This document shows positions 10,809 to 28,705 of a DNA stretch of 64,000 nucleotides, one piece after another (the first letter of the stretch is position 1; each line of letters begins with the position of its first letter). The notes beneath the pieces were generated by a model. The model was not told where the DNA came from. It searched no databases and saw nothing but the letters and a program-made list of their open reading frames with translations. The translations under genes and the position numbers were made by a program. Source of the stretch: Thermoproteota archaeon (GTDB lineage: Archaea; Korarchaeota; Korarchaeia; Korarchaeales; Korarchaeaceae); assembly GCA_027492205.1 (NCBI GenBank), contig JAOZFN010000010.1:1-64000 (forward strand), written 5' to 3'.

Positions 10809-11852
10809 TCATGCCCTCGCCTCCACCCTAACCTCTTCCGGGTCCACGATTCCGTCCCCGTTTTTGTCCCTCCAGTACACCAGGGTGACGTTGGCCGACA
10901 GCGCGGCCTGGAAGTTGGACGCCGCCCACATGAGCCCGGCCCTGGTGCCGTACCTCGTCACCCCGCCGATGAAGAGCGTTATCTCGCCCCCATCCTTGAC
11001 GGGAATCACGGCCGCGTAGTCCTTGTATCCGAAGTCTGCCCGCAGGGTGACGCCAGCGTACCTCATGCCGACGTAATATCCCCCGGCTTGAGCGAACTCT
11101 ACGACGGACGACGGCCAGTCAGGATTCACGAAGGGACCTCCGAGCACCACCTCAAGCCCGCCAGACCTGTCGGTCGAGTACCCCCCGAAGTAGGATTCGA
11201 TCAGGTCAGAGTTCATCTCGGCGTCCACCGACGACCTGGCCACCGGCCTGAAGGCCTCCGGCCCAGGGTAAGGGGTCTCCTCCAGCTTCGCCATGACCGT
11301 CCCAGATTGCGTGGGCTCAGACTCTGGGTCGTCGCTGTCCGCGCTGTAGGAGACAGTCACCTCGATGACGTCCCCCGGGCGGAGGATAGGGTCGAACGGG
11401 TCGCCGGTTGAGAGCGGATACACGAACTCGACCGTGGTTCCGGAGGGGCCCTCCTTCCCTGCGGACGACAGAACGTTCGGGTCGTCGAGCGAGCTCTCGC
11501 CGCCCCTGGTCTTCCGGTCCTCCACGAAGGTCCTTCCGGACGAAACCCAGGCGACTATCAGGTTGGCCCAACCGCCCTCACCGACCTTCCTCCACGAGAT
11601 CGCCACGTAGCCCTTGCCAGGGCTCGACAGCCCTACGTAGAGCCTCTGACCGTCGTGCATCCAGTGTACGGATACCCCGCCGACCGAGAGAGATGCGGGG
11701 TACTCACCCGGCCCTATGGTGCCCATCAGGGTCAGATACTTCGGATAGGGGACGCATGGAATCGTGACGTAACTATCTGCGGCCATCGAAGAAGCTGCGG
11801 GGGCCGGAATGCCCAGGAGCAGTAGCAGTGCAATCGTGCTTGCCCTTCGCAT
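10809..11852 (-). CDS. Secreted DOMON-like protein with C-terminal S-layer-like/EF-hand module
   Basis: A signal peptide (MRRASTIALLLLLGIPAPAASS) is followed by a DOMON-like beta-sandwich (about 45-190, with VSVHWMHDGQRLYVGLSS). Then comes a module (about 225-347) with VLGGPFVNP, a YAAVIPVKDGG strand, GVTRYGTRAGLMWAASN and an EF-hand-like DKNGDGIVDPEE. The same module ends the thioredoxin-like protein at 26803-27798. It acts outside the cell; DOMON domains bind haem or sugar, but the ligand is unknown. The ATG is about 26 nt from a TATA-like AATTAAGG and so looks leaderless. The 3' end almost meets the mat stop. Confidence 0.7.
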   Translation of the reverse strand: MRRASTIALLLLLGIPAPAASSMAADSYVTIPCVPYPKYLTLMGTIGPGEYPASLSVGGVSVHWMHDGQRLYVGLSSPGKGYVAISWRKVGEGGWANLIVAWVSSGRTFVEDRKTRGGESSLDDPNVLSSAGKEGPSGTTVEFVYPLSTGDPFDPILRPGDVIEVTVSYSADSDDPESEPTQSGTVMAKLEETPYPGPEAFRPVARSSVDAEMNSDLIESYFGGYSTDRSGGLEVVLGGPFVNPDWPSSVVEFAQAGGYYVGMRYAGVTLRADFGYKDYAAVIPVKDGGEITLFIGGVTRYGTRAGLMWAASNFQAALSANVTLVYWRDKNGDGIVDPEEVRVEARA

Positions 11853-26802: not shown

Positions 26803-27798
26803 TTAGGGGGAGTGGAACGTCTCAACGACGGATATCTCCGAAGGCTGGACGGCTCCGTCAGAGTTAGCGTCCTCCCAGAGCAAGACGAAGCCCGCGTCCG
26901 GACTCAGCCTGTTCATGTTGCTGCTGAGCCACACGAGGGCAGCCCATGTCCCGTATCGTGTGCACCCCATCGCCCCGGCCACGTATCTGGTGCCCTCGCG
27001 GAACGTGAACACGACGGCGTAGTCCCTCTTGGCCCAGTCTGCCCCGGACACGGAGTAGGTCTTCCCGATCGATCGGACCTCCATCACGATTGATCTGCCC
27101 GCCTTCGAGAAGTAGACCCCCATGTGCGAAGCCGCGGACTTGGCAGGGTTGACCACCGCCCTCCCCTCGTGGGCGAAGGGTCCGCCGACCACTATGTAGG
27201 AGGCCCTCTCGGGGAGAGACATGACTACCGTCCCTCCTATCGTGGAAGAGAACTCCTGCGCACGCTGCTCGTCCACCCGAGAGCCCACCAGCAGGTAGGG
27301 ATACCTTCCGCTCCCTCCGAGGACGCCGCCCAGCATGGAGCAGAGGGTCTCGCCGCTGGGACTCCCCTCCTCGGCCAGCACCACCTTGGACGAGGAGTCG
27401 AGCACGATCCAAGTTGGGGTGGCCCTCAGCTGGAAGGCCGTAACGAGCTCGCCGGTCCCGTCGGCGTACCTCCACCCCTCGGCCCCGATGGAGAGGAAGA
27501 ACTGGTAGTCCGCCTCAAGGTCCCTGCTGACCCCCACCGCAACCACCGCGTAGTTCAGGGGAGTCCTGCAGGCCTTGAGGGCCTGGGCGAGCTTGGGCAG
27601 GTCCGTGCGGCAGTGCGGACAGTTGTGCTGGAAGAACACAAGGACGACCGCGTCCCACATCAGGTTCTCCGACGAGATGACCGCCCCGTCCTTGGTCGTG
27701 AGGGAGAATGACACCCTCTGCCCAACGGTGGGCAGGGCCGCCAGGGTGAGCGCCTGAAGGAGCATCAGCGCCGCGAGCGCAGCGGCCGGGGTTCGCAT
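26803..27798 (-). CDS. Secreted thioredoxin-like protein with C-terminal S-layer-like/EF-hand module
   Basis: A signal peptide (MRTPAAALAALMLLQALTLA) leads into a TlpA/redoxin-type domain with a CPHC active site (VFFQHNCPHCRTDLPKLAQAL) and cis-Pro (RATPTWIVLD). The last 110 residues contain YIVVGGPFAHEG, DYAVVFTFREG, GCTRYGTWAALVWLSSN and EDANSDGAVQPSEI. This is the module that also ends the DOMON protein at 10.8 kb. It is an extracytoplasmic thiol-disulfide enzyme, probably tied to the cell surface. The ATG is 26 nt from AATATTTAA and so looks leaderless. The 3' end lies 24 bp from the HAD stop. Confidence 0.8.
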   Translation of the reverse strand: MRTPAAALAALMLLQALTLAALPTVGQRVSFSLTTKDGAVISSENLMWDAVVLVFFQHNCPHCRTDLPKLAQALKACRTPLNYAVVAVGVSRDLEADYQFFLSIGAEGWRYADGTGELVTAFQLRATPTWIVLDSSSKVVLAEEGSPSGETLCSMLGGVLGGSGRYPYLLVGSRVDEQRAQEFSSTIGGTVVMSLPERASYIVVGGPFAHEGRAVVNPAKSAASHMGVYFSKAGRSIVMEVRSIGKTYSVSGADWAKRDYAVVFTFREGTRYVAGAMGCTRYGTWAALVWLSSNMNRLSPDAGFVLLWEDANSDGAVQPSEISVVETFHSP

Positions 27799-27910: not shown

Positions 27911-28705
27911 GTGAGGCCGGTTTTTGCGAAATCCGCGCTGACCCGCAGCAGAATAGAGGGCATAGACTACGCCGTGAACCCCTACTACGGCTGCCTGCAC
28001 GGCTGTCGATACTGCTACGCGGCGTGTATGACGATGAGGCGATTCCCCGATCACGTGTGGGGGCTCCACGTCCACCCAAAGGTTAACGTCCACCGCCTCC
28101 TAGACAGAGAACTCTCGTCGGCGAGGCCAGGGCTCGTAGAACTCGGCACGTCCACAGATCCCTACCAGCCCATCGAGTCCAGGTTCCAGTTGACCAGACG
28201 CTGCCTGGAGGTCCTCTCCCGCCACTCGGGGTTCGACGTCGCCCTGCTGACCAAGTCCCCCCTTGTCCTGAGAGACCTCGAGGTCCTGAGGGCGGTCGAC
28301 GCGGAGGTAGGGCTCTCGCTCAGCGGCCTAGGGGGTGCCTTGTGGCTCCTCGAGCCGAGGGCGCCCCCCGCAGAGGCGAGGCTGGCGGCGCTCAGGAGGC
28401 TGTCCTCTGAGGGGCTGAGGACGTTCGCGTTCATATCTCCGGTGCTGCCTGGAATCACCGACAGGCAGATCCAATCACTCCTGAGGGCCGTCGCAGGGGC
28501 GAGGCCGAGTAGGGTGCTCGTGGACGCGCTGAGGTTCAGACCGGGCGTCCTCAGGTCAATGAGACAGGCACTATACAGCTCACCCGACCTGCTGAGAGAG
28601 CTGGAATCCTACGCGTCCGACCAGTTGGGGTGGCTTCAACGAGTGAGGGCCGCGATGGAGGAGTCGGCCGAGGGGCTCGGCCTCACCGTGGAATTCCTGT
28701 TCTGA
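27911..28705 (+). CDS. Radical SAM protein, SplB/spore-photoproduct-lyase-like
   Basis: The product of about 264 residues has FAKSALTRSRIEGIDYAVNPYYGCLHGCRYCYA, with the radical SAM CxxxCxxC (CLHGCRYC), then HPKVNVHRLLDREL and GTSTDPYQPIE, which places it in COG1533 (DNA repair photolyase-like). Archaeal members are uncharacterised. The GTG at 27911 gives the usual N-terminus, but no ribosome site precedes it. A TTG at 27884, 11 nt after GGAGGTG, would add nine residues. It is convergent with the glutaredoxin-like gene. Confidence 0.85.
   Translation: MRPVFAKSALTRSRIEGIDYAVNPYYGCLHGCRYCYAACMTMRRFPDHVWGLHVHPKVNVHRLLDRELSSARPGLVELGTSTDPYQPIESRFQLTRRCLEVLSRHSGFDVALLTKSPLVLRDLEVLRAVDAEVGLSLSGLGGALWLLEPRAPPAEARLAALRRLSSEGLRTFAFISPVLPGITDRQIQSLLRAVAGARPSRVLVDALRFRPGVLRSMRQALYSSPDLLRELESYASDQLGWLQRVRAAMEESAEGLGLTVEFLF

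Follow-up and report, generated by a model that had tools for sequence, protein, structure and literature searches.

Two proteins with unrelated N-terminal domains, both encoded in the window (the whole analysed stretch of 64,000 nucleotides from a Thermoproteota archaeon), end in a common module distantly related to the archaeal S-layer anchor domain, the window copies lying below Pfam's cut-off. The reading that we prefer, and hold to be probable, is that the module is an unsplit relative of that domain (PF05124, S_layer_C type), capped by a calcium loop, and that it serves as an exchangeable docking tag. Computed support comes from the family relationship, the position of the module, the diversity of the attached domains, the conservation of the loop and the lack of a membrane helix within the module or beyond it; attachment to the cell surface by the module is what we infer.

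The shared module and its S-layer kinship

The two window proteins and their parts are as follows.

10809..11852 (-): DOMON protein, 347 aa, with the module at its C-terminus (open frame translation, Pfam)
11364..11678 (-): DOMON domain, residues 59-163 (PF03351, 35.7 bits, cut-off 32.7)
10812..11252 (-): C-terminal module of the DOMON protein, residues 201-347, predicted S_layer_C-type fold with a terminal EF-type loop (alignment; AlphaFold2 model, mean pLDDT 92.7)
10833..10868 (-): EF-type loop of the DOMON protein, DKNGDGIVDPEE, residues 329-340 (sequence; weak EF-hand_5 match, below the cut-off)
26803..27798 (-): thioredoxin-like protein, 331 aa, CPHC motif, with the module at its C-terminus (open frame translation, Pfam)
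27379..27714 (-): AhpC/TSA-Redoxin type domain, residues 29-140 (PF00578, AhpC-TSA, 33.3 bits, cut-off 26)
26806..27306 (-): C-terminal module of the thioredoxin-like protein, residues 165-331 (alignment; AlphaFold2 model, mean pLDDT 87.9; 9FSA match)
26836..26871 (-): EF-type loop of the thioredoxin-like protein, DANSDGAVQPSE, residues 310-321 (sequence)

A longer open frame, starting at 27963, is possible for the thioredoxin-like protein. The first-pass annotation had proposed that both proteins carry the same C-terminal module behind unrelated N-terminal domains. Both frames translate as it stated, and the C-termini are identical at 43 of 123 positions (BLASTP, E = 1e-13), with meaningful alignment confined to this part; Pfam assigns the N-termini to different families (DOMON and AhpC-TSA). 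The motifs that it listed (GGPF, YA(A/V)V, G(V/C)TRYGT and a final D-x-N-x-DG) are present in both proteins, and the last belongs in each case to a complete 12-residue EF loop. It was right about a shared C-terminal domain and set the start too late, the true start lying near residue 201 of the DOMON protein and residue 165 of the thioredoxin-like protein; the two copies that it counted are real, and the genome total is five. Chance similarity is ruled out by the BLASTP result together with the presence of the module in 26 of the 29 genomes of the phylum.

Searches of both C-termini with Pfam and NCBIfam gave no match except EF-hand_5 in the DOMON protein, which at 11.3 bits is below its cut-off of 25.9. 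PF05124 likewise gave no match on the two window modules; it exceeds its cut-off of 23.9 on three modules from relatives (25.6, 25.1 and 24.4 bits, with neighbours). This profile matches large proteins taken as S-layer proteins and has a match in every phylum genome searched (24/24, assigned by kinship). The likely main S-layer protein of the window's own genome is an 891-aa protein on contig C16, which also exceeds the TIGR01564 (S_layer_MJ) cut-off (29.1 against 25); PF05124 spans its residues 29-808, so that the domain is split by the body of the protein. Alignment of profiles with hhalign related the modules to the S-layer proteins over the C-terminal half, with probabilities of 97.5 and 98.1% for two alignments and 63% for a third (A4); the short N-terminal half of their domain was not detected. 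The lattice-forming body that lies between the domain halves is absent from the window proteins, in which the module follows the unrelated domain in one contiguous piece. The RxxGxxRYxT motif recalls bacterial CWB2, to which the module may be remotely related; PF04122 (CWB2) had no match in the own genome at E ≤ 10, and no CWB2 structure was among the structural matches listed.

Several other proteins of the same genome carry versions of the wider domain. A 390-aa frame on contig C12 is a small relative of the S-layer protein that keeps both domain halves without the lattice body, a natural unsplit form. A 713-aa protein on contig C4 (L018:4036-6177) has a middle that by eye resembles the middle of the main S-layer protein (a CPxCPxxG region) and ends in the module; the adjacent gene (443 aa) carries a GGH ... 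AGADRWET version without the loop. Two exported-looking proteins on contigs C1 and C5 (L215 and L216) have GGP ... AGxxRxxT versions nearer to the N-terminus and no terminal EF loop, which shows that the wider domain varies more than the tag does.

Different folds in the two C-termini, which would have counted against a common module, were not found: the predicted order of elements is nearly the same in both AlphaFold2 models (strand, helix, strand, strands, long strand pair, helix, strand, loop, strand), which were built from one joint set of 36 sequences and are therefore not an independent test of the fold. The thioredoxin module matches 9FSA with a Z of 8.3, near the level of a common arrangement, and an rmsd of 2.5 over 99 of 135 residues at 21% identity. 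The alignment covers chain residues 34 to 577 of 9FSA and so takes in both split parts. In PMC11410804, 9FSA is described as the domain of the Methanococcus voltae S-layer protein responsible for anchor dimerisation; the Pfam title of PF05124 reads 'outer domain', not anchor. For the thioredoxin module, N-terminal domains of glycosidases rank above 9FSA (Z up to 10.6), and 9FSA is absent from the 50 matches listed for the DOMON module. The S-layer type suggested by the first-pass annotation is supported by the PF05124 profile, by hhalign and by the structural match to 9FSA.

Distribution, placement and exchange of the module

Searching the own genome (1.94 Mb, 17 contigs, 96% complete) with each module revealed three further copies, at the ends of a 1108-aa glycosidase-like protein (C1), the 713-aa protein (C4) and a 726-aa repeat-rich-looking protein (C17). 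All five copies are C-terminal, each with an EF-type loop followed by a short tail, the loop of the C1 protein being one residue shorter. A short frame on contig C14 (L020:2809-3240) has a module-like EF tail (E = 0.0056) resembling the end of a protein from a 230-aa frame in a sister genome, and is possibly a decayed sixth copy. The profile search through genome and relatives that the first-pass annotation proposed found the five-copy profile at E ≤ 0.001 in 30 of 61 genomes: 26 of 29 within the phylum and 4 of 32 outside, divided by kinship. A 36-row profile at E ≤ 1e-6 also recovered 26 of the 29, including all 17 of good quality, with 2 to 18 copies per module-bearing phylum genome, and a 55-row profile at E ≤ 1e-8 matched 108 of 394 genomes (28/29 within the phylum and 80/365 outside, again by kinship). 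Related named records are mostly Thermoproteota or Crenarchaeota MAGs, and a 654-residue frame bearing the module occurs in two Theionarchaea records. One 20-kb contig (C126 of genome G013) holds seven module-bearing open frames, which form a tandem family of proteins of surface type. The module on a contig labelled Deltaproteobacteria is highly similar to the phylum copies, and this contig is probably misbinned. A Planctomycetia contig (tblastn 8e-5 over 52 residues) had no profile match and was taken as chance, and none of 12 pattern matches in viruses was confirmed.

The placement of the module was analysed in 120 stretches around listed matches, a selection from all those listed in which L142 and L165 come from outside the phylum, together with three long loci of the own genome and the window; these contain 139 open frames with the module at E ≤ 0.001. 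A stop codon is present in 137, and in 133 of them the module ends no more than 20 residues before it, the exceptions being L122, L149, L156 and L166. In L156 the module is followed by a Pro/Ser-rich linker and the protein's own membrane helix. No hydrophobic stretch was found in or after the module in any of the 134 frames counted, which have at most 30 residues behind it and do not include L156; this rules out a covalent sorting signal or membrane tail for nearly all members. Across 133 aligned modules, both glycines of G-x-T-R-Y-G-T are the most constant positions (133/133 each); next come a W and the D that precedes YA (131 each), then the loop's first D (130).

The EF-hand-like ending that the first-pass annotation read in two proteins proved general, with an EF-type loop in 125 of the 137 frames (12 residues long in 103 and 11 in 22); the remaining 12 lack one by the pattern applied, which for 12 residues asks for D1, D/N3, D/N/S5 and E/D12 and which both window copies fit. 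The helix-loop-helix of an EF-hand was not found around the window loops, which have strands on both sides in both models. The loop thus fits the residue pattern of an EF-hand but not its helix-loop-helix, and it may bind calcium.

Clustering of 128 N-terminal regions (blastp, E ≤ 1e-6, at least 60 residues, single linkage) gave 39 clusters with the module in common, and in this sense the earlier suggestion that it is exchangeable is borne out. Pfam matches over the cut-off among the 39 representatives comprise phospholipase D with lamin-tail and InlB-type repeats, AhpC-TSA, SBP_bac_5 (two clusters), GHL10, GH113, GH114, DOMON, peptidase C25, peptidase M28 (two), transglutaminase, WD40, BNR, Big_2, CARDB and others, with several representatives giving no match. 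The cargo classes thus include peptidases, glycosidases, solute-binding proteins and phospholipase D, which are extracellular types, and a rough indication of export, a hydrophobic stretch within residues 1-100, is present in 92 of the 122 frames that have an N-terminus.

On a tree of the 128 modules the nine larger N-terminal types require 13 changes, against a minimum of 8 and a shuffled mean of 56.8, meaning that most fusions were inherited once formed. The window's thioredoxin module is a different case. On a tree of 55 modules it clusters with its sister from the same genus, three S-layer-like paralogues and two others (96/94), and stands apart from the modules of 12 other thioredoxin proteins. 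Forcing all 14 thioredoxin modules together was rejected (p-AU 0.005, for a group chosen after the first tree had been seen). The N-terminal link of this protein to the other thioredoxin proteins is weak (E = 5e-7, one member), and the fusion represents either a swap or a second fusion.

The helix-turn-helix form and other readings of the module

The module also occurs in a form of a different kind. Fifteen matches outside the phylum were inspected (13 taken for this purpose, plus L142 and L165), and 12 of them (L165, L234-L237 and L239-L245) are open frames of 284-325 codons with the layout of L165, in which the module follows a helix-turn-helix and an EF loop lies almost at the end of the chain; L142, L233 and L238 make up the remainder. 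These proteins of about 300 aa, with a helix-turn-helix of ArsR type, also have a representative within the phylum (L251). Pfam confirmed the helix-turn-helix in all four that were scanned (L165, L234, L235 and L241), in which PF05124 is over its cut-off at 31.3 to 45.4 bits. The form is present in 5 of the 29 phylum genomes and absent from the window's genome. Members of this form, which is carried by other archaea as well, are putative DNA-binding regulators and look cytoplasmic. In 4 of the 12 outside loci the gene adjoins glmS, whose product makes glucosamine-6-phosphate. Since the same module is found on cytoplasmic-looking proteins, docking in the cell coat would not be its only use.

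Both the glmS neighbours and the structural comparisons leave some room for a module that binds sugar and so tethers proteins to S-layer glycans or to those of other cells, instead of pairing with the S-layer protein. The structures that rank highest for both models are the cellulose-export protein BcsB and the non-catalytic domains at the N-terminus of glycosidases (GH67, GH84, GH115, GH20). These matches, however, share only 5-16% identity in a common fold, and by sequence the module belongs with the S-layer protein domain itself, which makes sugar binding a rather unlikely explanation. We also think it unlikely that the module merely dimerises secreted proteins, or stabilises them in hot calcium-rich water, without docking. 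Such a role would suit the dimeric state that PMC11410804 describes for 9FSA and the cytoplasmic-looking helix-turn-helix form, which would require a dimerising domain, but it leaves the S-layer family membership unexplained, and the module is almost always the end of the chain, on very different partners, as surface tags are.

Two further readings are much harder to sustain. The D-x-N-x-D-G-x-V loop on secreted proteins could suggest a dockerin-like plug for a cohesin partner at the surface, and PMC9012536 reports dockerins on solute-binding proteins of ANME archaea; yet there is a single loop instead of two loop-helix repeats, a strand and not a helix follows it in both models, and the 120 residues ahead of it are also conserved, so we consider this very improbable. 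Descent of the common C-terminus from one multidomain ancestor, without exchange, would accord with most N-terminal types keeping one module lineage (the 13 label changes against a minimum of 8). It is hardly credible, given that the 39 clusters include unrelated Pfam families and that the thioredoxin module of the window stands apart from the 12 others.

A probable docking tag related to the S-layer anchor domain

Comparison with known systems places the module, on our preferred reading as a docking tag, closest to the S_layer_C domain (PF05124; TIGR01564; 9FSA of M. voltae), with which it shares profile similarity, the GGP and AGxxRYGT motifs and, in the thioredoxin module, a structural alignment over both split parts. 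Ordinary S-layer proteins of this class have the domain split by a lattice-forming body, whereas the module is in one piece and ends non-lattice proteins, followed by an EF-type hairpin that is missing at the end of the own genome's S-layer protein. The multiheme cytochromes of ANME archaea, as described in PMC9012536, likewise have functional domains fused to an archaeal S-layer domain and are thought to enter the coat; that domain is DUF1608, of Methanosarcina type, in large proteins with C-terminal membrane helices, and the account given there of the S-layer domain does not mention an EF loop. Bacterial SLH domains are also surface-attachment domains common to envelope-attaching proteins; according to the description in PMC12175726 they differ in having about 55 residues, occurring in three copies and binding cell-wall polymers.

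The fold of bacterial SLH domains differs from that of the module. Type IX C-terminal sorting domains and sortase or archaeosortase signals are also C-terminal tags common to diverse exported cargo, unlike which the module has no membrane helix at its end and a fold of the S-layer type.

By analogy, the module is placed like a bacterial surface tag and may work as one. In the mechanism that we propose, a strand-loop-strand hairpin with an EF-type calcium loop would cap a contiguous anchor-type domain, and calcium at the loop would stiffen the domain once exported. The stiffened domain could then form a pair, either with the S-layer protein's anchor domain or with a second copy of itself, and so dock in the cell coat. 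Pairing is proposed because of the 9FSA dimer and the tag-like placement, the M. voltae anchor domain being described as a two-fold dimer in PMC11410804. Enzymes and binding proteins docked through the module would need no lipid or membrane anchor of their own to stay at the cell surface.

A bolder extension, for which we see only a slim chance, is that one archaeal domain has two roles, tag and gauge. As a tag it would dock enzymes in the S-layer outside the cell; as a gauge, inside the cell and joined to a winged helix but with its calcium-type loop unchanged, it would pair with unexported S-layer anchor domains or sense the sugar supply for the coat, and would thereby match gene expression to the condition of the coat. 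That some of the helix-turn-helix regulators have glmS as a neighbour fits this idea.

A search of the open-licence PMC literature, preprints lying outside its scope, returned no earlier description of the module or of comparable S-layer tags. Only in a few cases is it known how archaea that lack a peptidoglycan wall retain their exported enzymes. If the module is a docking tag, as we think probable, it would give a readable list of surface proteins for a whole phylum known almost only from assembled genomes, with peptidases, glycosidases, solute-binding proteins and thiol oxidoreductases as cargo and a docking mechanism open to test with purified domains. An S-layer domain is here seen moving among structural, enzymatic and apparently regulatory proteins.
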